DNA from: a virus
Virus record (IMG/VR): IMGVR_UViG_3300043410_001330
Span: 1 to 42,960 of that record
DNA: 42,960 bases
Reading direction: 5' to 3' (one strand)
Under the pieces are notes generated by a model. That model searched no databases. It was not told the DNA's origin and saw only the letters and a program-made list of their open reading frames with translations. Within the stretch, counting starts at the first letter, position 1. Each line of letters opens with the position of its first letter. The translations under genes were made by a program, and so were the position numbers. Positions 3,494 to 39,389 of the stretch are shown in pieces.

Positions 3494-3712
3494 ATGCAAA
3501 AGTTAGAACTTGACACTAAAATTCACGACAACTTCTTTATGGCGCACGTGTATGACCACATCGTCGATAATGACAAAGACGGTGTTCGTCGTATCGCACA
3601 AGAGGCATTGGCTGAGTATGATGCACACATCGTGTTTGAAGATGACAACGAACAATATGTTCAATTTGATTCAGACGAAAAGTATACTTGGTTCGTCTTG
3701 AAATTCAGTTAA
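3494..3712 (+). CDS. Small protein of the C-terminal WF-x-L-K/R-F/W family
   Basis: 72 acidic residues starting at the ATG preceded by GAGG at 3484-3487; a TTG 12 nt earlier is less likely. It ends with FDSDEKYTWFVLKFS. That ending is shared by at least five other proteins in this window (5512, 15565, 17469, 19016 and 19300): a beta-strand, a charged turn, then W/F-F-x-L-R/K-W/F. The gene is transcribed alone between a strong promoter and a terminator. The function is unknown. Confidence 0.65.
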   Translation: MQKLELDTKIHDNFFMAHVYDHIVDNDKDGVRRIAQEALAEYDAHIVFEDDNEQYVQFDSDEKYTWFVLKFS

Positions 3713-3783: not shown

Positions 3784-3990
3784 ATGGTCAATACGATAGA
3801 GTTAGGGCGGAATACACCGCTACCAACAATAACCAAGCTAACGATTGTTAAAAGACAGCTGTATGCTAAACTAGTTTGGGGATGGCTTGATGTAAATCTT
3901 GACTATCATAGATATTATGGCCCAGCATCAAGTTGGGGAGATTGGTGTGTTAACGGGCAATTTATCAAATCAGGTACTGAAAATGAATGA
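3784..3990 (+). CDS. MORN-like HRYYGPA family protein, cluster A copy 1
   Basis: 68 residues, counting from the ATG at 3784; the longer frame begins inside the terminator and is rejected. The C-terminal half carries HRYYGPA, WGDWCVNG and FIK, the repeat unit shared by six proteins in two clusters. These resemble MORN-like tandem repeats (x-D-G-P-A plus W-Y-x-N-G) found in many phages and giant viruses, which usually form flat beta-sheets. The gene overlaps the next by 8 nt. The function is unknown. Confidence 0.65.
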   Translation: MVNTIELGRNTPLPTITKLTIVKRQLYAKLVWGWLDVNLDYHRYYGPASSWGDWCVNGQFIKSGTENE

Positions 3991-4144
3991 TGAAGCCATA
4001 CATGGATCTGCAATAGTAACATATTGGGAAAAGGGTACATGGGTATGGTATCCATCAGTTGACACCACCAATAGATATTATGGTCCCGCTATGCAAATCT
4101 ATGGGGAATACTTCTGGTATATTCACGGTACGAGAATTAAATAA
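3983..4144 (+). CDS. MORN-like HRYYGPA family protein, cluster A copy 2
   Basis: 53 residues from the ATG at 3983, which overlaps the previous stop (ATGAATGA). It contains a degenerate first repeat (GSAIVTYWEKGTWVWY) and a second repeat NRYYGPA, FWYIHG, RIK. It is the shortest member of the family. The stop overlaps the next start (TAATG), so the three genes form a coupled tandem array. Confidence 0.6.
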   Translation: MNDEAIHGSAIVTYWEKGTWVWYPSVDTTNRYYGPAMQIYGEYFWYIHGTRIK

Positions 4145-4371
4145 TGTTGGAAAAAATTGACAGTTCAGTCGCGGGATTGCCTTGTGTTCAATATAAACTG
4201 AATGGGGTATTCCATAAAACAAATGGGCCAGCAATGACAGTGACTAGTGCTTCCAGTAACTTATTGTATCTGTGGGAGGCTTGGTACTTATATGGGAATA
4301 ACCATAGATATTATGGTGATAGCAATTCCGTGGGTGATTGGTTTATTCACGGGGTTAAACTTAAATGGTAA
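4144..4371 (+). CDS. MORN-like HRYYGPA family protein, cluster A copy 3
   Basis: 75 residues. It has a first repeat NGVFHKTNGPA (about 20-30) and a second repeat NHRYYG at about 53-58, then WFIHG and KLKW. In this copy the usual GPA after HRYY is altered to GDS. It starts inside the TAATG overlap with copy 2. As in the other copies, the repeat suggests a small beta-sheet protein without a catalytic site. Confidence 0.65.
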   Translation: MLEKIDSSVAGLPCVQYKLNGVFHKTNGPAMTVTSASSNLLYLWEAWYLYGNNHRYYGDSNSVGDWFIHGVKLKW

Positions 4372-5351: not shown

Positions 5352-5380
5352 TTGACAACGATATAGTAATACTATATAAT
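5352..5380 (+). promoter_or_regulatory. Consensus sigma70 promoter
   Basis: TTGACA at 5352-5357, a 17-nt spacer and TATAAT at 5375-5380: a perfect consensus promoter. It drives the 5412 small basic protein and the genes to 6399, including NADAR. Confidence 0.9.
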
Positions 5381-5411: not shown

Positions 5412-5522
5412 ATGAGAAATTTAGTAGCAAAGAACAATAGGCATCGTGCGGTGGTGATGCCTGACAAGAAGAAGGATTATTGTAGACGTGTTAAGCATGC
5501 AGGTAAGAAGTATGAAAGATGA
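5412..5522 (+). CDS. Small basic conserved phage protein (36 aa)
   Basis: 36 residues, strongly basic: MRNLVAKNNRHRAVVMPDKKK followed by DYCRRVKHAGKKYER. The layout M-R-N-x-V-A-K, H-R-A, D-K-K-K and a KH-x-K tail matches a family of tiny basic proteins that I recall from many Gram-negative phages. These are presumably nucleic-acid or ribosome binding, but uncharacterised. AAGGA lies before the start, and a perfect sigma70 promoter lies 32 nt upstream. The stop overlaps the next gene by 11 nt. Confidence 0.65.
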   Translation: MRNLVAKNNRHRAVVMPDKKKDYCRRVKHAGKKYER

Positions 5523-5733
5523 GACACATCCAATAATAATTTCAATATATCCATTGCCATTTGATATCTTAAATGAGATTATGGTATGGAATAGCGCAAC
5601 CTTTGGCGAATTGGGTGACAAATGGAAATCTGGACTTGGAACCGTTAAGTTCGCCAACCAAGACTATGCCAACTGGTTTAGGCTGAGATGGGCAGACACA
5701 ATTTACGAATATAAACATAAGGATGACACATGA
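5512..5733 (+). CDS. Small protein of the C-terminal WF-x-LRW family
   Basis: 73 residues from the ATG at 5512, inside the end of the basic-protein gene; an earlier in-frame start at 5488 would lengthen the overlap and is less likely. It ends with VKFANQDYANWFRLRWAD plus a polar tail. This is the motif strand, acidic turn, WF-x-LRW shared with the products at 3494, 15565, 17469, 19016 and 19300. The N-terminal half is variable between members, which suggests a conserved scaffold with different targets. The function is unknown. Confidence 0.65.
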   Translation: MKDETHPIIISIYPLPFDILNEIMVWNSATFGELGDKWKSGLGTVKFANQDYANWFRLRWADTIYEYKHKDDT

Positions 5734-7641: not shown

Positions 7642-8673
7642 ATGACACTTTACGTTAGACGCGCTAATATTTTTACACCGACCGACGATGGCAATCTTGA
7701 TGTACGTGATAAATTACCAGCTGGTAATTTCATCGTTAAACGAACCCCAGATGGTGACTGGTTCTTTGAAAAGGTCGATTCATTTCAAATCAATTTCAAA
7801 CTCTATGGTGATACCTTACCCAATACTACCCGTATCTTGAATACATTTAACAACCGTGAGGCGGCAACTGGTGTAATGTTGACTGGTGAAAAAGGTTCTG
7901 GTAAATCATTGTTAGCAAAATCACTTTCGATCGAAGCTGCTAAACAAGACATGCCAACCTTAATTATTAATACGCCTTGGTTTGGTGATTCATTTAACAA
8001 ACTTATTCAAGATATCCACCAACCGTGTGTTGTGTTATTTGATGAGTTTGAAAAGATCTATGATCGTGAGGATCAACAAAAAATGCTTACATTATTAGAT
8101 GGGGTATTCCCAACTAAAAAGTTGTTCGTATTAACCTGTAATGACAAATGGCGTGTTGACCGACATTTACGTAATCGTCCAGGCCGTATCCATTATTTGA
8201 TTAACTACGGTGGTGTTAGCACAGAATTCATTCATGAATACTGCAATGATAATTTACTTAACCTGCAATACGTAGATCACATTTGTAAATTAACGTCGGC
8301 ATTTAATACGTTTAATTTCGATATGTTAAAAGCATTGGTTGCTGAAATGAACATGTACAATGAAGCACCTGATCACGCGTTGAAAATGTTGAATATCAAC
8401 CCAGAAGATGCTGACGATTGCCGTTTCAAAGCACATTTCACACCAGCAGAAACAAAAGAAACCTCAATTAGTAACTGGGGTGGCAATCCATTGACTGAAA
8501 GCCTCGAATTCAGTTACCGCGATAGCGAGGGGGATTGGATTGAAATCGAGTTCAATGCGAGTGACCTTTCATCGTTTGATAACAGTGGGTATTCATTTGA
8601 AGATGAACACGGCAATAAGTTGACTATGGCACGTATTGTTAAACCACCTTTCAGTTTCTACGACGCATTTTAA
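7642..8673 (+). CDS. AAA+ ATPase
   Basis: 343 residues. Walker A is GEKGSGKS at 82-89, Walker B is VVLFDEFEK at 130-138, sensor 1 is TCN around 165-167, and arginine-finger candidates lie in the segment RHLRNRPGR (174-182). This is the layout of classical FtsH/Cdc48-type AAA modules. The N-terminal 75 residues and the acidic C-terminal region (from about 270) look phage-specific and could recognise substrates. No protease motif (HExxH) is present, so this is a remodelling ATPase without a peptidase domain. It has its own promoter and a hairpin after it. Confidence 0.85.
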   Translation: MTLYVRRANIFTPTDDGNLDVRDKLPAGNFIVKRTPDGDWFFEKVDSFQINFKLYGDTLPNTTRILNTFNNREAATGVMLTGEKGSGKSLLAKSLSIEAAKQDMPTLIINTPWFGDSFNKLIQDIHQPCVVLFDEFEKIYDREDQQKMLTLLDGVFPTKKLFVLTCNDKWRVDRHLRNRPGRIHYLINYGGVSTEFIHEYCNDNLLNLQYVDHICKLTSAFNTFNFDMLKALVAEMNMYNEAPDHALKMLNINPEDADDCRFKAHFTPAETKETSISNWGGNPLTESLEFSYRDSEGDWIEIEFNASDLSSFDNSGYSFEDEHGNKLTMARIVKPPFSFYDAF

Positions 8674-9546: not shown

Positions 9547-9786
9547 ATGAACGAAACAACACTAGATGTATTTAAACAACTTAGAAACGACCTAGCTGCT
9601 GGGGCAATGATCGAACATAAAGTCGATGGTAAACTTCACAAGGTAAACGGTCCGGCTTGTATCTGGAAAATTGGCAATTATAGTGGATGGGCATTATTTG
9701 GTGAGTGCCATCGGTATTATGGTCCAGCAGCAAGCCTTGTTGGTAATGTCGAACGATGGTGGTTGCATGGAGATTTAATTAAATAA
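9547..9786 (+). CDS. MORN-like HRYYGPA family protein, cluster B copy 1
   Basis: 79 residues from the ATG at 9547; the longer frame begins inside the terminator. A leading helix (MNETTLDVFKQLRNDLA) precedes two repeats: GKLHKVNGPA at about 36-45 and CHRYYGPA at about 58-65, then WWLHG and LIK. It is the clearest two-repeat member. Like cluster A, this cluster sits directly after a terminator, so the two clusters may be copies of one tandem unit placed at different sites. Confidence 0.65.
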   Translation: MNETTLDVFKQLRNDLAAGAMIEHKVDGKLHKVNGPACIWKIGNYSGWALFGECHRYYGPAASLVGNVERWWLHGDLIK

Positions 9787-9789
9787 TAT

Positions 9790-9996
9790 ATGGACATCAT
9801 AGAAAAACTCGAATTACCAGATCAAACTTTATATTTAAAAAATGGCGTGAACCATAATCCATCTGGCCCAGCCAGTTATTATACAAAAGATACTTGGTTT
9901 TGGTATCTAAATGGGAAACCACATAGGTATTATGGGCCAGCCGCATCAACCAGAATAGATACCTTGTGGAGAATTCATGGTGAAGTACTTAAATGA
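9790..9996 (+). CDS. MORN-like HRYYGPA family protein, cluster B copy 2
   Basis: 68 residues. The repeats are NGVNHNPSGPA and PHRYYGPA, the latter after WYLNGK and followed by WRIHG and VLK. It starts 3 nt after copy 1 without a strong ribosome site. The spacing of the two repeats is the same as in copy 1, so the proteins are presumed to share one small beta-sheet fold. Confidence 0.65.
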   Translation: MDIIEKLELPDQTLYLKNGVNHNPSGPASYYTKDTWFWYLNGKPHRYYGPAASTRIDTLWRIHGEVLK

Positions 9997-10183
9997 CAAC
10001 AGCTATTTCCAATCAGATATACCAGGTATGCACCACCGTGCGAATGGGCCAATGCGAATCTTTGAGAATGGTAACTATTCTTGGTATTCATACAATGAAT
10101 GGCATAGGTATTATGGACCAGCTAGGTTTTATGAATATGGACAATGGTTTATTAACGGAATATTTGTAAAAAATGATACTTGA
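9977..10183 (+). CDS. MORN-like HRYYGPA family protein, cluster B copy 3
   Basis: 68 residues. It overlaps copy 2 by 20 nt. The repeats are GMHHRANGPM and WHRYYGPA, followed by WFINGIFVK. The -35 box of the next promoter (TTGACA from 10180) covers its stop codon. The overlap arrangement resembles that of cluster A, supporting duplication of the entire tandem unit or repeated tandem duplication. Confidence 0.65.
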   Translation: MVKYLNDNSYFQSDIPGMHHRANGPMRIFENGNYSWYSYNEWHRYYGPARFYEYGQWFINGIFVKNDT

Positions 10184-10207
10184 CATTTTGTATCAATACT
10201 GTATAAT
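10180..10207 (+). promoter_or_regulatory. Sigma70-type promoter
   Basis: TTGACA at 10180-10185 and TATAAT at 10202-10207 with a 16-nt spacer. It drives the unit 10238-11588, which includes the P-loop kinase. Confidence 0.85.
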
Positions 10208-11664: not shown

Positions 11665-13062
11665 ATGAACACATCAATTATCTTGAACACTGATTCGTAC
11701 AAAGTTTCAATGAATCAGCAATATCCACCAAACACCACTGGCGTTTTCAGCTATATAGAAAGTCGCGGCGGTGATTATCCTGTCACTGTATTCTTCGGAT
11801 TACAAGCATTTATTAAAGAGTATTTGCTTAAACCAATCACGCAAGCCGATATTGATGAGGCTGCGGTGATTCTTGCAGCACACGGGGAACCATTCAATAA
11901 AGCTGCGTGGGAATACATTCTGCAAGAACATAACGGATATCTTCCAGTTGTTATTAAAGCTGTTCCCGAAGGCACAGTTGTACCTGTTAAAAACGTATTG
12001 GCAACAATTGAAAACACTGATCCAAACTGCTACTGGCTAACAACTTGGCTAGAAACGGCATTACTGCGTGCTATTTGGTATCCAACTACAGTGGCAACAC
12101 AAAGTTGGACTATTAAAAATCACATCATGCAATATCTTATTCAAACCAGCGATTCCCAGTCTAATATTGATTTCAAACTGCATGACTTTGGTGCTAGGGG
12201 TGTATCATCATTAGAATCAGCAGGTATCGGTGGCGCAGCTCACTTAGTAAACTTCAAAGGTACTGATACCATAGCTGGGCTTTTGTTCGCTAGCAAATAC
12301 TACAATGCTGATATGGCGGGATATAGTGTTCCTGCGGCTGAACATAGCACCATCACCAGTTGGGGCAAAGAACATGAGGTTGATGCATATCGTAATATGT
12401 TAAAACAATTTGCTAAACCTGGTTCCATTGTTGCAGTAGTATCAGATAGTTATAATATCTATAATGCTTGCAGTTCATTGTGGGGTGGTGAATTAAGAGA
12501 CGAAGTAATCAATAGTGGTGCAACACTTGTTATCAGACCGGACAGTGGCACACCACATAAAGTTGTGCTTGAATGTCTGCGCATCCTATCTGATAAATTT
12601 GGATACACTGTTAACAGCAAAGGATACAAAGAGATCAACCATGTAAAAGTTTTGCAAGGTGATGGTATTAACTTAGACAGTATCAAAGAAATCTTGTTCC
12701 ATGTTGCTGTTGATGGTTTCTCGACTGACAACGTGGTGTTTGGTATGGGTGGTGCATTACTACAAAAACTAGACCGCGATACCCAAAAATGGGCAATGAA
12801 ATGTTCATCAATACAAGTTGACGGTGAATGGCGTGATGTATTTAAAGATCCAATCGATGACAAAGGCAAATCTAGCAAACGTGGTCGAATTACGTTATAC
12901 AGACCAAACTCAATTTACTATACTTCCACTGAAAACTCCGAGGATTCTAAATATGAGGTATTGACAACTGTATTTGAAAATGGTAAACTTATTACCGAGT
13001 ACACATTCGATGAAATACGTGAACGTGCTCATTCAAAATATCCTTTTACAACACACCAATAG
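11665..13062 (+). CDS. nadV: Nicotinamide phosphoribosyltransferase
   Basis: 465 residues, the full length of NAMPT/NadV. The enzyme joins nicotinamide and PRPP to give nicotinamide mononucleotide for NAD+ salvage. Conserved parts are the opening LNTDSYKVSMNQQYPP (8-22), GARGV (R178), GTDT (D201), PAAEHST with the catalytic His at 227 (human His247 region), IRPDSG (R291, D293), GDG at 332-334 and MGGALLQK. All active-site elements that I can check are intact, so the enzyme should work. It heads an operon with the SPFH lipoprotein, under a sigma70 promoter and an AGGAG site. An NMN adenylyltransferase is not seen in this window. Confidence 0.95.
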   Translation: MNTSIILNTDSYKVSMNQQYPPNTTGVFSYIESRGGDYPVTVFFGLQAFIKEYLLKPITQADIDEAAVILAAHGEPFNKAAWEYILQEHNGYLPVVIKAVPEGTVVPVKNVLATIENTDPNCYWLTTWLETALLRAIWYPTTVATQSWTIKNHIMQYLIQTSDSQSNIDFKLHDFGARGVSSLESAGIGGAAHLVNFKGTDTIAGLLFASKYYNADMAGYSVPAAEHSTITSWGKEHEVDAYRNMLKQFAKPGSIVAVVSDSYNIYNACSSLWGGELRDEVINSGATLVIRPDSGTPHKVVLECLRILSDKFGYTVNSKGYKEINHVKVLQGDGINLDSIKEILFHVAVDGFSTDNVVFGMGGALLQKLDRDTQKWAMKCSSIQVDGEWRDVFKDPIDDKGKSSKRGRITLYRPNSIYYTSTENSEDSKYEVLTTVFENGKLITEYTFDEIRERAHSKYPFTTHQ

Positions 13063-14914: not shown

Positions 14915-15262
14915 CTATATAGGTACCTTGTTTCCGTTCTTATCGACGCTTACGAACGTAATCTGATTACTAAATGACACTTCTTGAGTACCTTGATAAT
15001 GGGCTATAACTGTTATCTCAAATGTCGCCGAGGTTGTTCCCTGTTTAATCAAGTTTGAATCAAATTGGAGGATAGAACCTTTATGAATCCGTTTATGGAA
15101 TACGACTTCATTTAGCCCGACTGTAACGAATTCACGGTCAGGGAATGTTAGACTGACAGCAATATACCCAGCTTCATCTATCCATTGCAAGAGTTGGCCT
15201 CCATATAGGAGGCCATAGTGGTTTAAATAATTTGGTAAAACTAATCTATAAGTTGTGGTCAT
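14915..15262 (-). CDS. Hotdog-fold acyl-CoA thioesterase
   Basis: 115 residues from the ATG at 15262; a TTG further upstream is rejected. The motif HYGLLYGGQLLQWIDEAGYIAV at about 15-36 is the hotdog active helix, with the catalytic Asp (D30) after the GG turn. Then come EFVTVGLNEVVFHKRIHKGS and QVSF-type strands, as in YciA/Acot acyl-CoA thioesterases. These cleave acyl-CoA to fatty acid and CoA. In a phage this could alter lipid metabolism or membrane composition. The start overlaps the stop of the upstream gene (ATGA), so translation is coupled. Confidence 0.85.
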   Translation of the reverse strand: MTTTYRLVLPNYLNHYGLLYGGQLLQWIDEAGYIAVSLTFPDREFVTVGLNEVVFHKRIHKGSILQFDSNLIKQGTTSATFEITVIAHYQGTQEVSFSNQITFVSVDKNGNKVPI

Positions 15263-15546: not shown

Positions 15547-15566
15547 AACGGGGCTTACGCCCCGTT
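15547..15566 (-). terminator. Intrinsic terminator (minus strand)
   Basis: AACGGGGC at 15547-15554 pairs with GCCCCGTT at 15559-15566. On the minus strand it is followed by TTTTTATATC. The stem overlaps the stop codon of the 15565-15774 gene. Genes beyond it may be read by partial read-through. Confidence 0.85.
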
Positions 15567-15774
15567 AGTCTTTTTTAAAATAATCTGACCATTTTAAGAT
15601 GAAAAAGTTTCGGTGGCCGTCGTTCTTGAATGAAAACAATCGTTCATTCATCTGCATACCACATTCACTCTTTTCAACCCATTCTGTCATTTCTGCAAGT
15701 ATCTCTGCTGAGATTTCATCACGGTCAAACGAAATTCCTGGTAAACTAAACATCCCAGTGGTAACCTGTTTCAT
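15565..15774 (-). CDS. Small protein of the C-terminal FF-x-LKW family
   Basis: 69 residues from the ATG at 15774, which has a GGAGGA site; a TTG further upstream is rejected. It ends with LFSFKNDGHRNFFILKWSDYFKKD, the family motif of a strand, a charged turn and FF-x-L-K-W. The middle (ISAEILAEMTEWVEKS) is a helix with the E-M-x-E-W pattern that also occurs in the 19300 and 19016 products. The function is unknown. The shared helix-strand arrangement supports real paralogy. Confidence 0.7.
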   Translation of the reverse strand: MKQVTTGMFSLPGISFDRDEISAEILAEMTEWVEKSECGMQMNERLFSFKNDGHRNFFILKWSDYFKKD

Positions 15775-15785
15775 ACTTCCTCCAA

Positions 15786-15938
15786 TTAACAATTAAGTCC
15801 AAGTTCAAAAATTGTATCATATAGGTCTAACAATTGTTGATCTGTTAGATTATACAAGTCTTCTGGGTATATGTCAAATATTTCTACTAGACTATCATCC
15901 CAATGTTTTACAATTCTATCAATAATTAATTCTTTCAT
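15786..15938 (-). CDS. Hypothetical small acidic protein (50 aa)
   Basis: 50 residues: MKELIIDRIVKHWDDS, then EIFDIYPEDLYNLTDQQLLDLYD and FELGLNC. It is almost fully helical and acidic, and starts at an ATGA overlap with the gene upstream (15938-15935). Sequence character and exact fit between neighbours support it. No family is recognised. Confidence 0.5.
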   Translation of the reverse strand: MKELIIDRIVKHWDDSLVEIFDIYPEDLYNLTDQQLLDLYDTIFELGLNC

Positions 15939-16174
15939 CTATTTACCACCTTAAAAATTTCAACTGACAACCATAAGATTGTCACAATAAAAAAAGATAT
16001 TGGCCAACAAAATGCAAGTGCAATACCATACTTGGTTTGCGCTGGGGTTGGCATATATACCTCCAAGTGATTTACAAGCATAGACAGAAATAATTTCTTC
16101 ATAAAAATTGTAATTTCTAGGTATACGACTACTAAGGCAAAATACAGTAGCAGGTTTAAAATTTGTGATACCAT
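15935..16174 (-). CDS. Two-span membrane protein, loose LFLWP-type relative
   Basis: 79 residues with hydrophobic segments at about 4-20 and 51-72. The second contains GIALAFCWPISFFIV, resembling the LFLWP signature of 6947, 7192 and 16192. A GGAG site (on the minus strand) precedes the start. It overlaps the next gene downstream by ATGA. The function is unknown. Confidence 0.55.
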   Translation of the reverse strand: MVSQILNLLLYFALVVVYLEITIFMKKLFLSMLVNHLEVYMPTPAQTKYGIALAFCWPISFFIVTILWLSVEIFKVVNR

Positions 16175-16191
16175 GATGTCTCCTAATTATG

Positions 16192-16419
16192 TTATCGTGT
16201 CATCATTTTACATAAACCGAATAATATCAACAATGGCCACAAAAACAATAGACCTAGACGTTGAAATATACGGATTCCTCTATTTTCACTTAATACCTCA
16301 ATTTCCGGTCCATTACTAAACCATACGCAGGTAAACCCGATCATGAAATATATAATTACAAGTGATATTAAATCGTGAATACTGCCTTCCGTTAAATGTT
16401 GTGATAATATTAGTAACAT
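16192..16419 (-). CDS. Two-span membrane protein, LFLWP-type family
   Basis: 75 residues starting at the ATG at 16419, which follows GGAGGA and overlaps the previous stop (TAATG); a TTG at 16461 is rejected. It has two membrane segments with a polar section containing ENRGIRIFQRLGLLFLWPLLILFG. The R-x-x-x-LFLWP motif is shared with 6947 and 7192 on the other strand, which supports transfer or duplication of this family between the two accessory regions. Confidence 0.6.
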   Translation of the reverse strand: MLLILSQHLTEGSIHDLISLVIIYFMIGFTCVWFSNGPEIEVLSENRGIRIFQRLGLLFLWPLLILFGLCKMMTR

Positions 16420-16571
16420 TACTCCTCCAATACTCGACAATAATAATAATACCCAGACCAAGTTTCGCTAAGGCACCAAGCCTTAGCCTCGGTAACTGTT
16501 TCAAACTCCATCACTTCGGATGATGTTATACTATTGTAGTCTCTATCGACCTTAACCACAATGAACTTCAT
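16419..16571 (-). CDS. Hypothetical small protein (50 aa)
   Basis: 50 residues, starting and ending in TAATG overlaps with both neighbours, so it must be translated by coupling. The sequence MKFIVVKVDRDYNS, FETVTEAKAWC and YYYYCRVLEE resembles a small beta-alpha-beta unit, a common phage pattern (strand, T-E-A-K-A helix, strand). The four consecutive Tyr residues are unusual. The function is unknown. Confidence 0.55.
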   Translation of the reverse strand: MKFIVVKVDRDYNSITSSEVMEFETVTEAKAWCLSETWSGYYYYCRVLEE

Positions 16572-16918
16572 TAGTCTTCCCATGATGATACTTTTAAAAA
16601 TTCTTTTCCATCATAGCTATCAATTTCAGCACAGATGTTTATTTCTTCAACCACCAGCTTACTATGTACGGTATTTGCGGCGTCACCCAACTCACGAACT
16701 ACTGCCACTAATGTTGCATCATTTCTCTTGATATGATAATCATACACTGGTTGGTTGGTTTCAGTCAAATGATATACTGGGCTACCATATTGGTCATTGC
16801 CAATATAGTAGTCGAGGCCTTTACGCGTTAGATATAATTCCATTGCCGCATTGGACAATGAAAACCCACCGTATTTTTTGTTAAGCACTACTTCTGTTGT
16901 TATTTCTGCGATTTGCAT
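16571..16918 (-). CDS. Conserved hypothetical phage protein (115 aa)
   Basis: 115 residues if the start is the ATG at 16918, which has a GGAG site 8 nt upstream; an earlier ATG at 16993 is possible but would overlap the previous gene heavily. The opening MQIAEITTEVVLNKKYGGFSLSNAAM resembles a phage family with the pattern K-x-Y-G-G-F-x-L-S. The later part has LVAVVRELGDAAN and an acidic terminal domain. The role is unknown. Confidence 0.65.
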   Translation of the reverse strand: MQIAEITTEVVLNKKYGGFSLSNAAMELYLTRKGLDYYIGNDQYGSPVYHLTETNQPVYDYHIKRNDATLVAVVRELGDAANTVHSKLVVEEINICAEIDSYDGKEFLKVSSWED

Positions 16919-17291
16919 TTGTACTACTCCGAATTTTTTTAATGTGTCTATGGTGTTCAAATAATGTACGTCGTAACTCATAGACACGGTCATCCATCTG
17001 CAATAGGTTAAATTGATGTCTGGTTGCCAAGCCTGCCCTACATAGTACTATTATAGCATCTCGTTCACACGAACGCAATGGTTTATGATTTAGTTGTTCT
17101 AATTTATCAGTAAAGTCAACGGTTGCCATTTGATATGCGGTGCCGTTTATCTCAAACCAACAAAAGTGAACTGACGAATTATAATAGAATCCAGTTCTAT
17201 TACATATAGGTTTACACGGGGTTAGGTTGCCTAATATATACGTAAAACGATGTGTCATCCAAGGTTCTAGCGGCAATACTTTAAGTGTCAT
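16881..17291 (-). CDS. Hypothetical Cys/His-containing protein (136 aa)
   Basis: 136 residues from the ATG at 17291, 11 nt inside the end of the upstream gene; longer starts would overlap that gene entirely. It contains CKPIC (26-30), further cysteines near 44, 75 and 85, and a strongly basic tail (KKIRSSTNANRRNNNRSSA). The basic C-terminus suggests nucleic-acid binding. It overlaps the next gene by 38 nt. The family is not recognised. Confidence 0.5.
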   Translation of the reverse strand: MTLKVLPLEPWMTHRFTYILGNLTPCKPICNRTGFYYNSSVHFCWFEINGTAYQMATVDFTDKLEQLNHKPLRSCERDAIIVLCRAGLATRHQFNLLQMDDRVYELRRTLFEHHRHIKKIRSSTNANRRNNNRSSA

Positions 17292-17472
17292 ATAGTACCC
17301 ATTCTTGTATTTGATCGTTAAAAGTAGCACCGAGTTCTCTAGGATGCATCTCTGGTAGAACAACCGTTGCGCCAGTATCAAGGTTAATTCCATAATCAAC
17401 ACCGAATACTTTTTCACCAGTCTTACCTATTTTATCATATACCGGAAACCAGCCGGTTATCAATAATATCAT
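17281..17472 (-). CDS. Conserved small phage protein (63 aa)
   Basis: 63 residues. A short hydrophobic start (MILLITGWFPVYDKIG) leads to VFGVDYGINLDTGATVVLPEMHP, then LGATFNDQIQEWVLYDT. The central phrase resembles a short beta-hairpin protein that I recall from several phages (DTG-x-x-V-x-L-P-x-x-H-P-x-x-L-G). It is coupled to the upstream gene by ATGA. The function is unknown. Confidence 0.55.
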   Translation of the reverse strand: MILLITGWFPVYDKIGKTGEKVFGVDYGINLDTGATVVLPEMHPRELGATFNDQIQEWVLYDT

Positions 17473-17705
17473 AAGTATTCGGCGTATTTTAATAAGAAAA
17501 ATGTTTTCTTTAACTCATCATAAAAGTCTAGGTGGATAACTGGATTGCACCATCCATCCTCGTCAATCTCTATGTGGCGGCGACAGGTGAATCCCAATAC
17601 ATCGCGCATTTTAGATCTGATAGCAAATACACTCAGTGGATAATCCTCATGCATTTTTGCTAATAAACCCACCCAAGTTCGTTCTTGAATTTCAATATGT
17701 TTCAT
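17469..17705 (-). CDS. Small protein, probable FF-x-LRW family relative
   Basis: 78 residues with TAATG and ATGA overlaps at its two ends. It ends with HLDFYDELKKTFFLLKYAEYL, a variant of the family motif in which W is replaced by Y. A helical N-terminus and a central Cys-Arg-Arg-His segment make it different from other members, so the assignment is by the C-terminus only. The function is unknown. Confidence 0.5.
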   Translation of the reverse strand: MKHIEIQERTWVGLLAKMHEDYPLSVFAIRSKMRDVLGFTCRRHIEIDEDGWCNPVIHLDFYDELKKTFFLLKYAEYL

Positions 17706-17992
17706 TAGTCAAATGTTTTAATTAAGTGTAGTGTTAGGTATTCATCTTGAGGTAACACCGCCACATCTTGTGGATAGCGGGTATGTTCGCCATTGTACCA
17801 TGTTCGTGTAACAGCGTTAACGATTCTAACTCGAACCATCTTTGGTGTTAATTTGATTACTTTTGCTAACCGTAATTCCGATCCAACCGAAAATACGACA
17901 AAAGAGTTTATTGGTATTTCTCGTCCAATTATATCATGATGTATAATTTCTTTTTTTGTTCTTTTAGCAGCCGGTTTCTTGTCTGTTGTCAT
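17705..17992 (-). CDS. Conserved small beta-barrel-like phage protein (95 aa)
   Basis: 95 residues from the ATG at 17992. A basic N-terminus (MTTDKKPAAKRTKKE) is followed by IIGREIPINSFVVFSVGSELRLAKVIKLTPKMVRVR, then RYPQDVAVLPQDEYLTLHLI. The repeat of short strands (V-V-F-S, L-R-L-A-K-V, M-V-R-V-R) suggests a KOW/SH3-like barrel. This pattern is familiar from T4-like phage hypothetical proteins. Its basic tail could bind nucleic acid. The function is unknown. Confidence 0.6.
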   Translation of the reverse strand: MTTDKKPAAKRTKKEIIHHDIIGREIPINSFVVFSVGSELRLAKVIKLTPKMVRVRIVNAVTRTWYNGEHTRYPQDVAVLPQDEYLTLHLIKTFD

Positions 17993-18275
17993 CCGTGTAT
18001 ACTTCCCAATCCTGTGTGTCAATATTCCAATGGCGAGAATCATATATTCTCATACCGATTTCGTACTTCCCAATACCAAATGTCAATTCTGGACCAGCGT
18101 GGTCATGCCCTCGACATTCTAATGAACAAGTAAATTCAAACCAGTTCCAGTCATCTTTAATAATTTGGAATTCCCAATGCTTATTTTTGGTGAGTGAACC
18201 TTCAGTTGAATATAAACTTTTAAAATTGTTCTGTTTAAAAAACGGATTCTTAATTGTCAATCCAAGTCTTATCAT
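17964..18275 (-). CDS. Hypothetical protein (103 aa)
   Basis: 103 residues with a beta-rich pattern (KHWEFQIIKDDWNWFEFTCSLECRGHDHAGPELTFGIG), suggesting a beta-sandwich or hydrolase-inhibitor-like fold. It starts at an ATGA overlap with the upstream membrane protein and overlaps the next gene by 29 nt. No family is recognised. Confidence 0.55.
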   Translation of the reverse strand: MIRLGLTIKNPFFKQNNFKSLYSTEGSLTKNKHWEFQIIKDDWNWFEFTCSLECRGHDHAGPELTFGIGKYEIGMRIYDSRHWNIDTQDWEVYTDDNRQETGC

Positions 18276-18649
18276 ATATTACCTGTAAGTGAATATGAAA
18301 AATATAACACATACGTCAAATAACACGTATAGTGTAATAATTGATCTAAACCAATAAAGGTCCAGAATAGTGGTTCGTGCATCTCATAGTGACTGATGTT
18401 ATTCTTTGCCCAATCAATATGATAATGCACAATTATATCCACAATTCCCAATATCAAGGCAGTTTTTAAATCAAAGTAGCATAACATAACGGCGGTTAGT
18501 ATACCATGTTTCATACTATGTCTGAAACCGATCCAATTACCATATATGCCTTTCTTGCATACTTCTTCGTAAGTTTGATTATAGAAATCAACGAACCAGT
18601 GCTTGATAAAGAGTAATTGTAGAATAATAAGTGTTGTTAATAAGGTCAT
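18272..18649 (-). CDS. DUF3307-like multi-span membrane protein
   Basis: 125 residues from the ATG at 18649, coupled by ATGA to the previous gene. It has about four membrane segments with repeated His-Asp motifs facing the membrane: KHWFVDF near the first, RHSMKHGILTAVML in the second, and VDIIVHYHIDWAKNN near the third. The H-x-x-D...H-x-x-x-D-W pattern matches DUF3307-type membrane proteins, which also occur in T4-like marine phages. The conserved His and Asp residues suggest a metal site, but the activity is unknown. Confidence 0.6.
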   Translation of the reverse strand: MTLLTTLIILQLLFIKHWFVDFYNQTYEEVCKKGIYGNWIGFRHSMKHGILTAVMLCYFDLKTALILGIVDIIVHYHIDWAKNNISHYEMHEPLFWTFIGLDQLLHYTCYLTYVLYFSYSLTGNI

Positions 18650-18990
18650 GGTGTTTGCTGTTGTTCTAATTTGTCTTCGCATTCACATAAAACACGAATA
18701 GTGTCAAATTGCTCTTTTGCATTCTTTAACGCAGGATATTTATCCACCAGCGTAAGCAGGGCGTCTTCTTTCTGTTTAGCTTGAATTGCCCAGTCAATGG
18801 CCGATTGTGTTTCTTTTGTAAATGTTATAGTACCGCTACTACCAATTCCTACCCATGATTGACCGTTATATACTTCAAGATACCCATTTGAACTCCGCAA
18901 CGTCCCAGTAACCTCAACCCCAGTAAAATATGGAATAAATCCTTTACCAGTACCAAAAAAATACTTATTACTGTAAATCTCTGTAATCAT
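18646..18990 (-). CDS. Hypothetical protein with a fibre-like N-terminal segment
   Basis: 114 residues preceded by GGAGAG. The first half (GVEVTGTLRSSNGYLEVYNGQSWVGIGSSG) resembles short modules found in phage tail fibres. The second half is helical (AIDWAIQAKQKEDALLTLVDKYPALKNAKEQFDTI), like a small phage family that I recall from T4-like phages. It may be a virion or assembly factor, although it lies in an operon of early-type genes. The assignment is uncertain. Confidence 0.55.
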   Translation of the reverse strand: MITEIYSNKYFFGTGKGFIPYFTGVEVTGTLRSSNGYLEVYNGQSWVGIGSSGTITFTKETQSAIDWAIQAKQKEDALLTLVDKYPALKNAKEQFDTIRVLCECEDKLEQQQTP

Positions 18991-19015
18991 TTAACTCTCC
19001 GTGTCATATTTTGTG

Positions 19016-19291
19016 TCAAGACCATCTTAACACAAACCAGTTTAAATCCGATTCATCCCTAAAATAGAATTTCCCTGTAAAATGCCTAAACCAACGTCTT
19101 GGCAATTGTGCGTCTGATGGGCCAAACTGTTGTTCGCACCACTCATACATTTCTTTCCTTATACCCGCCGTTTCTAAGTATCGATATGCGGTACTAACCC
19201 AGGCATAACCTGCATATTCATCACCAGCATTCATTGTCACATGCTTCCCTGTTTTTACTCTTGGTGTCTTAGTCCATTCTTTATTAATCAT
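19016..19291 (-). CDS. Small protein of the C-terminal WF-x-LRW family
   Basis: 91 residues ending with GKFYFRDESDLNWFVLRWS, the best match to the family consensus (strand, D-E-S-D, W-F-V-L-R-W). The central helix (YLETAGIRKEMYEWCEQQFG) corresponds to the E-M-x-E-W helix in the products at 15565 and 19300. The ribosome site is weak. It follows 19300-19485 closely and is in the same operon. Confidence 0.65.
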   Translation of the reverse strand: MINKEWTKTPRVKTGKHVTMNAGDEYAGYAWVSTAYRYLETAGIRKEMYEWCEQQFGPSDAQLPRRWFRHFTGKFYFRDESDLNWFVLRWS

Positions 19292-19299
19292 TTAGTTGT

Positions 19300-19485
19300 C
19301 TAGCCTAGCCATCTTAATATAAAAAAGCTTTTATCTTGTTCATTAAACAGTGATATAATATTCGATTGTAATATATGTTTAATCTTATTACTGTGTAACC
19401 ATTCTAGCATTTCAGCTACCTCGGTTGATTCTGCCGTACCTAATATAAAACTCTGCGGCTCAAATGGGTGCCTACGAATATTCAT
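19300..19485 (-). CDS. First gene of minus operon: FF-x-LRW family protein
   Basis: 61 residues from the ATG at 19485, which has a GGAGGA ribosome site; the upstream frame extension is rejected. The sequence ESTEVAEMLEWLHSNK, a helix, leads to IISLFNEQDKSFFILRWLG, the family signature. It is the first gene after the strong minus-strand sigma70 promoter and therefore should be among the most expressed products of the accessory operon. Confidence 0.7.
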   Translation of the reverse strand: MNIRRHPFEPQSFILGTAESTEVAEMLEWLHSNKIKHILQSNIISLFNEQDKSFFILRWLG

Positions 19486-25787: not shown

Positions 25788-29558
<3,771 letters not shown>

Positions 29559-29564
29559 TATACG

Positions 29565-29570
29565 TAAATA
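29565..29570 (+). promoter_or_regulatory. Late-type promoter box (GTAAATA)
   Basis: TACGTAAATATA, 19 nt before the ATG at 29590, with AAAGGA as ribosome site. It starts fibre cassette 2. Confidence 0.55.
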
Positions 29571-29589
29571 TATTAATAAAGGATTATAA

Positions 29590-29867
29590 ATGAGAGCAAG
29601 AGAATTTACAATAAATGTACCAATTAACATTAAAATTAATGGTGATGGTGATCCCGAAATAGATGTTCCATCATCGGATAGTGTTGATCCTAGTGAACTA
29701 GACCCAAATCCAATATATATCTCACCATTACAACAAGATTTAGAACTCCGTAAAGCTGAGGTTGGTAAAAATAGTGATGTTATCCAAGATCTCACACAAG
29801 ATGAATTCAAAGATACCTTATCATCCGATGAACTAGTAAGAGTTAGAGAAATACTTGGAAAATTAGT

Positions 29868-29871
<4 letters not shown>
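29590..29871 (+). CDS. Small acidic PLQQ protein, fibre cassette 2, CTS-like start
   Basis: 93 residues. The opening [10 protein letters not shown] resembles the capsid-targeting-like starts. Then come Asp/Pro/Ser-rich segments and [25 protein letters not shown], the same phrase as in 25528. A terminal helix ([15 protein letters not shown]) follows. It overlaps the fibre gene by 4 nt. The duplicated order (small acidic protein, then fibre) implies a shared function such as chaperone or adaptor. Confidence 0.6.
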
Positions 29872-32438
<2,567 letters not shown>

Positions 32439-32442
32439 TAAC

Positions 32443-32448
32443 TAAATA
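32443..32448 (+). promoter_or_regulatory. Late-type promoter box (CTAAATA)
   Basis: ATAACTAAATACAA, 41 nt before the ATG at 32490, with AGGAG as ribosome site. It starts the transcript of the 1024-residue structural protein. Confidence 0.55.
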
Positions 32449-32489
32449 CAACATAATGGAATTATCCATAACAATTAGGAGAATAAAAA

Positions 32490-35400
32490 ATGGCAATAAT
32501 TAGCGAACTAGGCAAAAATAGTGCTGTAATTACATACCAGTCAACTACAGGTGCCGATGTTTTTGGTACATTTGGACTTATTGACAAGTGGATTCGAAAT
32601 GATACATTACAAGGTACTGCATCGACATCCGGAACTACTGTTTTAGGTGCAAATTCAATGTTCTTAACTCAATTAAGTTCAGGCGACATTATCATGCTTG
32701 GCGGTTACAAAAGAATAGTAGATACAATAGCATCTGATTCTAGCTTCACTGTTACAGTAGCATTTTCACCTGATATTTCAGCCGCTAATCCCGGAACAAT
32801 CAAAGTATTAAATCCAGTGGTTGGTACAGGTACACAAAACACACAACTAGCCGGTACTGCAAGTACATTAGATTTAGCGTATGCTAATAGTAATACTGCA
32901 GGCACCGTGTCAGTTAAAGCGGGCGATGTTACTGTTACTGGTTCATCAACATATTTTACAAGCGAATGTACTAACTCAGTATCAACTTCTGCGGTAACTG
33001 GTACAGTTGCAGTTGATACATCTGGTAATATTACCGGGACAGGTACCTCATTCTTAACAGCAGTACTAGATGCTGATAAATTAAAACCAGGCGATAGTAT
33101 TTTAGTTGGAACAAACAACTATTTCGTTGTCGATACAGTAACAGGAGACCTTACCGCAACAGTACGCGTTCCACCTGCATCTGGAATTGCCGGAGGAGCA
33201 GCGATTGCAAAAGCTACAAATAGTGTGGTCGGACGTACTATAAACATAAATGGTCGTGTTCGTGTAATTACTGGAATAACTAATGACACTACACTAAATG
33301 TAAATGCTGCGTGGGATTTTACTGATACAAATCTTGAATTTAAAATGTATCCACGTGGTACAGTTGCAGTTACAGCAGCTAATACCGGTATAACTGGAAC
33401 TAACACCTGTTTTTCTTGGGACATTCCATCAGGATGTCAAGCATGGGTTGGTGACGAATTAAGAACGTTTACATATTTAGCAGGTGCAACTACTGCTGCG
33501 ACAGCTGGGATTAGCGGGTATCCTATAGGTTATAGTGCAATATCAGCAAACTTTTCAACAACAATGACCGGGTTAACATTTAGACGTGACGACACTGTTG
33601 TAACATATACTCCGTCAGGCGGCAATCTTCTTGCTAACGAAATTCGCGTTGGTGATGATATTATCATTAACGGTAATGAAACAACTATTACTAAAATAAT
33701 TTCGGCTACCCAATTTAAAGTTAGTACCGATTTACCGTACTTTGATGCTAAAACTGTATATAAAAAGAAAAAATTACACGGTTTCACATTAGAAGGTACT
33801 CGTGAAGGAATTACATCAGATACGTCTGTCACTAGGTTAGGTACAACTACGTACATAACTGCTAATGCACTAATTGGAACAAATACAATTACAATTACTG
33901 CGTTAACTGCTAATGTTCATGCTGTTAATAACATTGTTAAAATCCAAGGCGCCGGTGGTCCGCATGCGCTGTTAACAGGTACTGTAATTGTTAATACTAA
34001 TAATACAATTTCCGGAACTAATACAAAATTCTTGTCAGAATTACATGTAGGTGCTGAAATTTTAGTTGGTAATGAGTTTACTTATATTACTGCAATTTCA
34101 AGTGACACTGGTGCAACTGTTGCACCATGGCCAAATGTTGGTTCTGCAAACGCAAATCAAATTAACACTGGTTCGAATTCATTCCCGATTTACAGAACTA
34201 CACCATTATATACATTTATTACGGGAACAAGTTCTAATACGTTTACAATTTATCATCCTTTAAAAAATTCATTGTATATTAACGGTACAGGTGGAACATT
34301 AGGTCCGGCAGTTATGTGTCCAACTACTACTGTTGCAACTAACTTTATTGAATTTGTGTACTCTGCGCCAAACAAAATGATTGAGACATCAATTACTGAT
34401 ATTAACAATAGTTACGATCGTAAATATTTTGGAATAAGGTATTACCCATTTGCAGGAACAACAAATACCCTTATTGGTTCAGATGGGGCATACAACGTAA
34501 CTGTATACGAAAGATGGGTCGCTAGTTGGGCTGGCGCTGGTGGTGTTGGTATTAACTTAGCTCACGGTAGTGACGGTATAACTGGACTCGGATTAAGTCA
34601 AAATACTACAGTAACTGATCAGACATCAATGACATTCCAAACAGGTGGATATTTATATTTGTTTGCTAAACCAAGATACTTCATCGTACAAGGTAAAACA
34701 TTTGGCGGTATTCAAAAACAATGGTTAGGTTGTATTGAATTTGAACGCGCTCAACCAGACGATTTACCATCCGGTTTAGGAACAGCTACCCCTGGATATT
34801 CGTATACCGGAACATTTAGTGGCAACTATTCAATTGCGCCAACAACTAGTCCGTTCCCGTGCTTTGCATATTTTAATTCAAATAGATTCCCAGTAGGAGC
34901 AACTCAAATTCCTACATTCCCAATTAATTATACAACTGCTGCACAAGGTGTTCACGGTAGTATTTTTTCAGTTCCTCGTATTAAGGGTAGTAGAGGTGAT
35001 TTAGTTAATATTAACTCACATATCTATACTGCTGCAACTGTTACAACTGGAAGATGGGGCCATTTATTTGAACTTGGTGGGGCAGGTGCATATACTAATC
35101 CGACAGCATCTGGCGCAGCTTTTGTAAGTGGAACAATAGGTAATACCGCAAACACATTGTTCCAGCCGCATTTAGGACAGATTATTCCTTATGCACCTAA
35201 CGTTTATAATAGCAAACGGTTTATGTTTAGTCCTGTTATGATTTTAGGTCCTGCATGGGATCCCGATATTCGTGGAAGAATGTTCGGTCTTAAAATTATC
35301 CCAAGCAACTTAGGAACATTAATGGACACCGTAAATGTAACTATTGAATCCGATGACTTTTATGATAAGAACGGAACTGCCACTGATCACTGGGTTATTA

Positions 35401-35564
35401 CAGCGCCTGGGGTTACTACTTATACCTTTAGGGTTATTGGAACCGCAACAGCTTCAACATATACCGCTACTAGTGGTATTAGAAGTCTTGAAGATGAAAG
35501 TACAACTTTTAGTTTAACACCTACTACATTTACAAACAACTTTAGATTTGCAATTCCAACTTAG
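32490..35564 (+). CDS. Large virion structural protein (1024 aa)
   Basis: 1024 residues, rich in Thr, Ser, Gly and Asn and poor in charge, typical of a beta-structured virion protein. A recurrent module of about 50 residues, G-T-x-x-V-x-x-x-x-T-x-F-L-x-x-L-x-x-G-D-x-I-x-x-G, occurs around residues 40-75, 170-220 and 500-540. The segment NIVKIQGAGGPHALLTG (about 485-501) has a counterpart in 39390 (VRISGAGAPHTALNG), so the two genes share domains. Position and composition suggest a tail or baseplate-attached protein; the exact role is unknown. It ends at a terminator. Confidence 0.75.
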   Translation: MAIISELGKNSAVITYQSTTGADVFGTFGLIDKWIRNDTLQGTASTSGTTVLGANSMFLTQLSSGDIIMLGGYKRIVDTIASDSSFTVTVAFSPDISAANPGTIKVLNPVVGTGTQNTQLAGTASTLDLAYANSNTAGTVSVKAGDVTVTGSSTYFTSECTNSVSTSAVTGTVAVDTSGNITGTGTSFLTAVLDADKLKPGDSILVGTNNYFVVDTVTGDLTATVRVPPASGIAGGAAIAKATNSVVGRTININGRVRVITGITNDTTLNVNAAWDFTDTNLEFKMYPRGTVAVTAANTGITGTNTCFSWDIPSGCQAWVGDELRTFTYLAGATTAATAGISGYPIGYSAISANFSTTMTGLTFRRDDTVVTYTPSGGNLLANEIRVGDDIIINGNETTITKIISATQFKVSTDLPYFDAKTVYKKKKLHGFTLEGTREGITSDTSVTRLGTTTYITANALIGTNTITITALTANVHAVNNIVKIQGAGGPHALLTGTVIVNTNNTISGTNTKFLSELHVGAEILVGNEFTYITAISSDTGATVAPWPNVGSANANQINTGSNSFPIYRTTPLYTFITGTSSNTFTIYHPLKNSLYINGTGGTLGPAVMCPTTTVATNFIEFVYSAPNKMIETSITDINNSYDRKYFGIRYYPFAGTTNTLIGSDGAYNVTVYERWVASWAGAGGVGINLAHGSDGITGLGLSQNTTVTDQTSMTFQTGGYLYLFAKPRYFIVQGKTFGGIQKQWLGCIEFERAQPDDLPSGLGTATPGYSYTGTFSGNYSIAPTTSPFPCFAYFNSNRFPVGATQIPTFPINYTTAAQGVHGSIFSVPRIKGSRGDLVNINSHIYTAATVTTGRWGHLFELGGAGAYTNPTASGAAFVSGTIGNTANTLFQPHLGQIIPYAPNVYNSKRFMFSPVMILGPAWDPDIRGRMFGLKIIPSNLGTLMDTVNVTIESDDFYDKNGTATDHWVITAPGVTTYTFRVIGTATASTYTATSGIRSLEDESTTFSLTPTTFTNNFRFAIPT

Positions 35565-35587
35565 CGCAAACTAAGTAATAAAATTTT

Positions 35588-35618
35588 AAATAGCTGCCTG
35601 ACCCGCAGCTATTTTTTT
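35588..35618 (+). terminator. Intrinsic terminator
   Basis: AAATAGCTGC at 35588-35597 pairs with GCAGCTATTT at 35605-35614 around CTGACCC, followed by TTTT. It separates two structural transcripts. Confidence 0.9.
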
Positions 35619-35621
35619 AGG

Positions 35622-35627
35622 TAAATA
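35622..35627 (+). promoter_or_regulatory. Late-type promoter box, 5 nt from the start codon
   Basis: GGTAAATA directly after the terminator, then TTAGT and the ATG at 35633, with no Shine-Dalgarno. The same spacing and nearly the same sequence (xTAGTATG) appear at 42880. Confidence 0.55.
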
Positions 35628-35632
35628 TTAGT

Positions 35633-38600: not shown

Positions 38601-39088
38601 AAGATGTAACATACGCAGAGATGGCACCACTTGGTATGCCGCGTGATGTACAGATACCTCGTCAAAACTTAATATCTGCTGAATACATAAAACCAAATCA
38701 AAGAGGTTCTACTGATTTTAATATTGATAGAACCGAAAGTGCGGTAATTACGAGTGGGTTACTTGGCAAATTTAAAGTTGATATAATTGCGGTCGAACCT
38801 ATTAACAAGGCCAACACCCTTAATAAACCATTATTTACAGTAGTTAATATTGCTGCTAAGATTAATGTTGGTAAAGTTACCCAATTTGCTAAAATTGCAG
38901 GAGACGCAGTTTCAGTTTCTAACAGTAAGGGTGTTATAATTAAAAACGATAAACTAACATCGATTGATCAGATTATATCCAGCGAAGGTATAATTAAACA
39001 ATTTAAAGTAGATCGTATTGCGGGGATAACATCAGAACCAGCAAAAATTATAGTAACACCATTATCTCCGATACAGTTTTGGAATTAG
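35633..39088 (+). CDS. Large structural protein with five WY-x-x-ELNIL repeats
   Basis: 1151 residues. Five related modules begin with a helix N-V-x-x-WY-x-x-E-L-N-I-L (Trp at about residues 60, 239, 420, 651 and 904) followed by a strand of the type T-x-x-L-x-F-N-N. Each module also has a later phrase P-R-x-N-L (APRDNLFLSE, PLRNLLYSL, TPRENLYYAV, PRQNLISAEY). Modules are about 180-250 residues long. No enzymatic motif is seen. The repeated beta-modular organisation suggests a long fibre or a baseplate decoration. The start has no ribosome site. Confidence 0.75.
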   Translation: MIINFPAPGSETATQLNTVFENFTVPSNSGALSYIDTTDIEIGTPIYITNYKVSFNVADWYAKELNILSRSVTVPSGSQTLNFNNKSASSLILQVGYKIKITDLVLNTSTIVTISAATISGITIPVIPGFPLYGNRSIRIVNVTTEIYPKTAVSQKNVSLGLIIANIIAPRDNLFLSETAPSVRGIKLPISQSLISSQIPVVPSRLNTYSNVNIKGDILVNITDQSTNLKTTSSNIINWYATEEPILKITTTLPSTKILYFSQQSYIPFFKGSTVRVSATHGFIGTFTVLDCSLTSVTLDNCAIFGTVGTTVDNITTTVRKVRDQVELPALPLRNLLYSLVKSTSSFIGSTPVVTQFEPAVINQSLSVREVSPIIVSAKLSTYDNVGLTEGAAVTINSIVENILPITGMLSNASSNVVNWYTNELNILTTTYTNPSTVTLFFNKPTTIGSDIVLSNSQRSYISKITVISSTLNSVTIARPAFDINFTGFFTGFFIYVSSTLNFTSTSSILYNSGGFVKLNAPGYSTVVPIISGNNSSITVEVPLQSLTMSYTSFENASLSVYPSVMASSMSHTREKIFLVSSRIADTSNAASLDRIASADIVPKIKSVNLIEPFYNVPNFVENVIVSTGSVDTVIPITFSIQAYTNNVVQWYEQDLNILKQTAITQTTLILYFNNSIGVVAGSTIRVIEYTSKLYRLLTVISANSYSATVAYDSSLIINNLYVYVKTTQSFTQKSFIPYIITGIVSLKLPNSTIVINTSIINSTSSSIEFVKTSVINTAGATISDANPSYYPQIKVATTQLPLTPRENLYYAVVLPYYRTAQTVKPATEEPRTFSNFGKISAFKTDQYQGFIVPKNDKVQTVKFTASATSVSVGDVTSLPKFSTVPTAITASAVGQTVYNVPTWYGFELNILQRQSTVSSTTRLVFNNASSYNYLFSVGDTVKLYRLNYYVYVEILSATLTTITFITPNGFPNDTSGLTIQNYSSTIYPKDVTYAEMAPLGMPRDVQIPRQNLISAEYIKPNQRGSTDFNIDRTESAVITSGLLGKFKVDIIAVEPINKANTLNKPLFTVVNIAAKINVGKVTQFAKIAGDAVSVSNSKGVIIKNDKLTSIDQIISSEGIIKQFKVDRIAGITSEPAKIIVTPLSPIQFWN

Positions 39089-39089
39089 C

Positions 39090-39095
39090 TAAATA
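39090..39095 (+). promoter_or_regulatory. Late-type promoter box (CTAAATA)
   Basis: TTAGCTAAATATAA, overlapping the stop codon of the preceding gene and 30 nt before the ATG at 39126. A CGAGGA ribosome site lies between. Confidence 0.55.
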
Positions 39096-39125
39096 TAATA
39101 TAAACATTAACACGAGGACAACACT

Positions 39126-39377: not shown

Positions 39378-39389
39378 TAGGAGAGGCTG

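Follow-up and report, generated by a model that had tools for sequence, protein, structure and literature searches.

The 42,960-base window analysed here is the whole of the IMG/VR virus record IMGVR_UViG_3300043410_001330, classed as linear and probably a fragment of a phage genome. On its minus strand, from 19485 to 15565, lies a terminator-bounded operon of 15 small genes (g1 to g15) behind a host-type (sigma-70) consensus promoter. The operon itself is real and ordinary for a large phage. Its interesting part is a group of genes from an uncharacterised protein family with tens of members per genome, for which the name FALRW is coined here, after the F-x-L-R/K-W at which its members end. 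It is tempting to speculate that the operon is transcribed early from host-type promoters and that FALRW proteins act as small adaptors or decoys on host or defence targets, a reading that we hold tentatively, with almost as much belief as doubt.

The operon and its FALRW genes

The 15 open reading frames (ORFs) begin with ATG, encode 50-136 residues and occupy 98.4% of positions 15565-19485. First-order shuffles of this stretch (n=1000) yielded a mean of only 2.75 ORFs (maximum 9) and a mean coverage of 12% (maximum 40%), and the plus strand across it has 4 ORFs covering 18%. The run of tiny minus-strand genes proposed in a preliminary description of this DNA, made from the letters alone, is thereby borne out. 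By codon usage, with the other genes of the window as training set, the called frame is the best of six in 13 of the 15 ORFs (p = 6e-9); the exceptions are g1 (rank 2) and g13 (rank 4 of six). A simple pattern recognises a ribosome site in 9 of the 15. Ten of the 14 junctions overlap (ATGA four times, TAATG three times, and three overlaps of 11, 29 and 38 nucleotides) and four have gaps of 8-25 nucleotides, so the earlier wording that almost every junction overlaps was slightly strong. Two genes once called invisible in simple ORF lists, at 16571-16419 and 15938-15786, are indeed there; they merely fall under the usual cut-off of 60 residues, and are listed when it is lowered to 30.

The promoter upstream of g1 (TTGACA-17-TATAAT, 12/12 consensus positions with a 17-nucleotide spacer) is at 19534-19506 on the minus strand, and an intrinsic terminator, a stem-loop followed by a U-tract, lies downstream of the operon end at 15566-15547 on the same strand. 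The whole window holds six 12/12 sites against 0.2 expected (maximum 2 in 60 shuffles), and this suggests that the phage employs this class of promoter. Strong promoters elsewhere in the window precede small genes, an AAA ATPase (7642-8673, plus strand) and a nicotinamide phosphoribosyltransferase (11665-13062, plus strand), while a scan of the whole window found that none of the virion genes (25788-39390) starts behind a strong sigma-70 site. Given the promoter class, the tight packing and the terminator, the operon is well supported as an early-type set of small proteins transcribed together. The further suggestion in the preliminary description, that the set may serve host takeover, is conjectural. 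The preliminary description had one consensus promoter driving all the genes. The site before g1 stands, but a second 12/12 site within g14, upstream of g15 (15877-15849, minus strand), means that this is not assured and that g15 may have its own transcript. T4-like late promoters are unsupported in the window: the late octamer TATAAATA has one match on both strands against 7.3 expected, which is rarer than chance.

Four operon genes, all on the minus strand, and two ORFs on the plus strand carry F-x-L-[RK]-[WFY] at the C-terminus, near the stop codon. In the operon these are g1 (19300..19485, 61 residues, with a GGAG ribosome site), g2 (19016..19291, 91 residues), g7 (17469..17705, 78 residues) and g15 (15565..15774, 69 residues). 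The plus-strand paralogues are at 3494..3712 (72 residues, with an 11/12 promoter upstream at 3375) and 5512..5733 (73 residues, aligned as 5518-5733), the latter being the second ORF after a 12/12 promoter at 5352. A hidden Markov model (HMM) built with the window excluded was run on the 373 ORFs of the window and recovered five of the six, with E-values from 1.9e-13 to 3.6e-4: g2, the best window member, at 1.9e-13, the 5512..5733 gene at 4.3e-8, g15 at 5.5e-6, g1 at 1.7e-5 and the 3494..3712 gene at 3.6e-4. The best unrelated ORF stood at 0.18. The match of g7 is weak (E 0.02); it represents a divergent subfamily (..LDFYDE..FxLKY) with tblastn homologues in 11 loci, which end in FxLKY or FxLRY. 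Three of these are called within the family, and most of the others lie no more than 35 nucleotides from a member. We therefore assign g1, g2, g15 and the two plus-strand genes to FALRW, and g7 on this separate evidence. Four of the six FALRW genes of the window have a strong promoter directly before them or one ORF before.

Members of the family are mostly 60-150 residues long, with a predicted last helix of the form E-D-A-x-x-F-x-L-R-W. The profile matches 652 ORFs at E<1e-3 in the loci searched, and 590 of these end at the motif, no more than six residues from the stop. Reversed or shuffled ORFs gave no match, a control run with the first and last HMMs of the model series. FALRW corresponds to none of the families in Pfam, PHROGs or the PDB (NCBIfam and PADLOC lay outside the scope of the search), and no paper describing the family was found among the open-licence PubMed Central (PMC) literature. 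Two ORFs in other viral loci (2525-2016 in L164 and 308-796 in L212) apparently have two FALRW domains in one protein.

The FALRW domain is predicted to be C-terminal, with a beta-alpha-beta-beta-alpha arrangement, and the same core appears in both proteins modelled. The AlphaFold model of g2 has a predicted template modelling score (pTM) of 0.62, and its residues 41-91 mostly have a predicted local distance difference test score (pLDDT) of 83-94. For a 60-residue array member, pLDDT is 88.6 and pTM 0.73, and the motif lies in the last helix. The significant fold matches of g2 are all proteins of uncultured Caudovirales phages (A0A6J5L6V8, A0A6J5T1G0 and A0A6J7WGK8, E 1e-4 to 2.4e-4), which have a g2-like fold and are themselves unnamed and uncharacterised. 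A Foldseek search of the PDB reached best E-values of 1.1 (g2) and 0.54 (the 60-residue member), and in a second look at the fold, Z did not exceed 5.5 and 6.3, respectively, values of a size described by the tool as common. Rows naming a type IIA topoisomerase fold for g2 were dropped because their Z falls in this range. Sequence matches in the PDB were weak (E 0.09 to 1.4) and were disregarded.

FALRW arrays in other phages

The route to the arrays was a relative of g10 in a 264-kb record (G001, locus L075), where six FALRW ORFs stand in a row beside a relative of g4; a second tandem run in this record has about 13. Viral contigs contain 112 stretches that match a DNA pattern for E-D-A-x-x-F-x-L-R-W, and contigs of prokaryote genomes contain 6. 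The 112 pattern loci (L102-L213), the window's own included, bear 731 members, with at least two on 100 loci, at least five on 63 and at least ten on 22; because the loci were picked by the pattern, these counts are uninformative on prevalence, and the HMM used for member counts, codon counts and substitution rates was built partly from the same loci. All 24 larger records, which were chosen for the pattern or, in the case of G001, for the family, have FALRW genes (4 to 46 members), and four near-complete records have 47, 44, 30 and 22.

Two cultured phages carry the family, which makes it directly testable. Sinorhizobium phage Phosso has 23 matches at E<=1, 17 of them at E<=0.01, including a five-gene run joined by ATGA, and Agrobacterium phage Atu_ph07 has six. 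No FALRW match was found in phages B23, S-CRM01, BUCT-ZZ01, Tr1, ET-ABTNL-9 or Moabite. Among the 37 records chosen via g10 or g4, four have one match each and none has an array. One of the six prokaryote contigs with the pattern, 6.4 kb long and from a Bacteroidetes metagenome-assembled genome, UBA11400 (locus L231, 160-3693, plus strand), has an array of about 17 FALRW ORFs, of which 15 score below E 1e-4; it is probably phage DNA in the bin.

Array genes typically end in TTG AGG TGG NN ATGA. Where a downstream ORF abuts, 239 of 322 members use AGG as the Arg codon of the motif; where none does, 6 of 44 do so (p = 7e-15); elsewhere in the members AGG makes up 323 of 3328 Arg codons. Because AGG is enriched where an ORF abuts and scarce where none does, we assign the last codons a dual role: the Leu-Arg-Trp codons of one array gene also form the ribosome site of the gene that follows, and the motif is maintained independently of this in the protein. 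The idea that the motif is a mere by-product of the ribosome site was rejected, since the protein motif persists in the 44 members without a following gene, and the window members keep it with other codons. These have TTA AGA/AAA TGG and similar, no AGG, and are uncoupled or loosely coupled. The window thus lacks the array organisation with its ATGA coupling and embedded ribosome site; other genes stand between most of its members.

FALRW genes are old, individually maintained and under purifying selection. Among 253 orthologue pairs between contigs, the median ratio of nonsynonymous to synonymous substitution rates (dN/dS) is 0.13 and none exceeds 1. At 60% identity or more there are two pairs from the same locus and 668 between loci. 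These identities, together with dN/dS, led us to reject a recent runaway duplication. A largely neutral tandem multiplication of a cassette that can be chained (start codon, gene, Leu-Arg-Trp ribosome site, next start) is very improbable, and disfavoured, as the origin of the arrays: each cassette end does provide the next ribosome site, but the age of the copies and a dN/dS of about 0.13 argue against it.

Of the 112 FALRW loci, 17 contain a relative of g3, g4, g5 or g6, compared with 0 of the 79 control loci obtained via g10 (p = 1e-4, with no correction for related contigs). Several pattern loci share one record, related contigs repeat orthologues and the eight g4 loci include five near-copies, so that independence is overstated in the Fisher tests given here. 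Since these relatives are found in FALRW loci and not in the controls, the window operon gives the impression of a dispersed form of the accessory regions in which FALRW arrays lie.

Capsid segments and the possible function of the family

The clearest hint at function comes from the major capsid protein Gp23. At E<=0.001, a search for T4-type Gp23 matched 19 of the 26 records, 18 of which pass the Pfam cut-off; unexpectedly, it also picked up short pieces inside the arrays. A Gp23 HMM built from ten capsid proteins, with E-values set for 1000 sequences, matches 27 of 17,432 small ORFs. Family members, 970 of the 17,432, account for 21 of the 27 (p = 8e-22). Four of the six other matches are long ORFs, and a related tail can be seen at the end of at least two of the six (..LALRFG, ..AMKWA). 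In the chimeras the capsid piece comes first and is followed by the FALRW domain at the C-terminal end. Two parts of T4 gp23 are found repeatedly, residues ~93-117 (in many cases up to 125) and ~250-326; the former, segment 1, is present in most of 15 chimeras and falls where the most conserved 29-residue windows of gp23 are found (T4 96-128). In 127 long members, the Pfam Gp23 family was detected in 12 and two PHROGs of major head proteins in 12 and 6, and no other virion protein recurs in them by Pfam or PHROGs. Three informative chimera pairs have dN/dS of 0.15-0.21; another pair, whose members are almost identical, has 0.83 from a small number of changes, and a further pair has no synonymous change.

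Segment 1 overlaps what we take to be the residues of the Gol region of gp23. As PMC3014915 describes it, Gol is the most conserved part of gp23, binds EF-Tu and activates the Lit protease. Capsid protein is also described as a trigger of CapRel and Sau-Thoeris (PMC9712102, PMC11312562). The chimeras resemble the Gol system in carrying the homologous, most conserved part of Gp23; they differ in that here the segment is part of a distinct small protein that also has a FALRW domain, and the window members are without it. Our best guess is that FALRW proteins are small adaptors or decoys, and the overlap of the commonest bait with Gol is the strongest clue. The host polymerase would transcribe the operon early, as its promoter sequence suggests, the constant FALRW domain would serve as scaffold and the variable N-terminal part would pick the partner. 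For members with a capsid segment, the likeliest partners would be those that bind nascent capsid protein, that is EF-Tu, capsid-sensing abortive-infection proteins similar to Lit or CapRel, or the assembly of the capsid itself. The FALRW members of the window operon would have other host or defence targets; for them, because they lack the capsid piece, the adaptor or decoy role is something we infer. If the capsid-segment members do bind EF-Tu or capsid sensors, this would represent a counter-defence strategy against capsid-triggered systems, and would help to account for part of the unknown gene content of large phages.

Several observations weigh against this reading. The capsid segment is found in just ~2% of the family (21/970), so decoying of capsid sensors cannot explain the whole, and the bait reading may not extend to members without a segment. 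No ORF of the window is among the 27 Gp23 matches, and its FALRW genes have no capsid segment. The segments are not closest to the capsid protein of their own phage, which ranks 7, 3, 3, 1, 7, 8 and 10 of 10. The N-terminal parts match non-capsid phage proteins in 18 of 518 cases, against 27 of 518 for control small ORFs. Neither modelled protein, g2 or the 60-residue member, has a fold match that names a function. A Gol-containing segment might also trigger Lit-type defences instead of blocking them. A fresh, 'spacer-like' capture of fragments of the phage's own capsid protein is unsupported, as the own capsid is not closest and no other phage protein recurs as a source.

It is rather unlikely, though worth serious weight, that this is an ordinary accessory operon whose small early proteins are unrelated and each play a minor part of their own, in which FALRW is an old fold without a common function. 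In the T4-like cyanophages B23 and S-CRM01 the g10 relatives sit within small-gene clusters, as does a g4 relative in BUCT-ZZ01, and g1, g8 and g11-g14 have no tblastn relative in the loci compared. The clusters of S-CRM01 and B23 resemble the operon in their tightly packed small genes of unknown function and their g10 relative, but neither record has the FALRW family. The recurrence of FALRW in long arrays under purifying selection, and the restriction of g3-g6 relatives to FALRW loci in the comparison with controls, speak against so loose an assemblage. A broader version of the adaptor or decoy reading is unlikely as a whole: that the arrays serve as a modular arsenal for counter-defence or host targeting, in which dozens of coexisting small proteins with a common adaptor domain are chained through hidden ribosome sites, and variable baits, Gol and a second capsid segment among them, engage host factors or defence sensors of capsid protein, with the window operon as a dispersed version behind early promoters. 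Phage G offers a partial parallel in a large lineage-specific expansion of a small protein, a zinc ribbon with about 35 copies, in a jumbo phage (PMC7824862); it is a different protein, and neither an embedded ribosome site nor a capsid segment is described in the account of that expansion (PMC7824862).

Two further explanations start from the capsid itself. FALRW proteins could be virion or head-assembly proteins, whose capsid segments join or regulate the prohead and whose arrays supply packaged internal proteins. The segments are indeed specific to Gp23, and Atu_ph07, with its six family matches, is reported in PMC6102473 to have 131 virion proteins, most of them without a function. This is nevertheless quite improbable, since the window members stand behind sigma-70 promoters and far from the virion genes, whose starts have none, and most members lack a capsid segment. 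Interference between phages, with capsid-segment members poisoning the assembly of competitors and the others hitting other competitor functions, is decidedly improbable. The segments are equally close to the capsid proteins of other phages and to their own, as it would have it, but a producer must be immune, and its own capsid protein is about as close as any other; moreover, capsid protein alone is mimicked and no other virion protein recurs.

Other genes of the operon and its surroundings

The remaining eleven operon genes, all on the minus strand, were described earlier as mostly encoding unknown proteins of 50-136 residues together with the rest; the sizes hold for all 15, but four genes fall in one family, g4 in DUF3307, and g6 and g10 match PHROGs. 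Pfam and PHROGs gave useful matches for these last three alone among the 15. The product of g4 (18272..18649, 125 residues) passes the Pfam cut-off for DUF3307 (PF11750, 33.9 bits against 23) and matches the membrane protein phrog_2470 (E 2.6e-15); it is one of 15 genes, and the family is of unknown function. The g6 protein (17705..17992, 95 residues) is phrog_2251-like (E 1.1e-6), with relatives near FALRW arrays, and that of g10 (16571..16918, 115 residues) is phrog_16527-like (E 7.7e-17) and widespread in phages, with 341 relatives among viral contigs.

Proteins of unknown function are encoded by g3 (18646..18990, 114 residues), with relatives in records G001 and G058, g5 (17964..18275, 103 residues), with relatives near FALRW arrays, and g9 (16881..17291, 136 residues), with a single relative in record G039. 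The orphans are g8 (17281..17472, 63 residues), g11 (16419..16571, 50 residues), g12 (16192..16419, 75 residues), g13 (15935..16174, 79 residues) and g14 (15786..15938, 50 residues). Of these, g12 and g13 are hydrophobic by eye, and g13 has the weakest coding score. No close relatives of the window were found by megablast in the phages collection or by single-protein scans of viral contigs, and tblastn with g3, g6 and one array member gave no match in the phages collection.

Directly behind the operon terminator lies a gene of the 4HBT thioesterase family (14915-15262, minus strand, Pfam E 1.6e-10). By eye, the plus strand of the window also contains a second family of small ORFs, with ends of the 'HRYYGPA...GxxxxW..HG..K' type, in several copies that form two clusters at 3784-4370 and 9547-10185.

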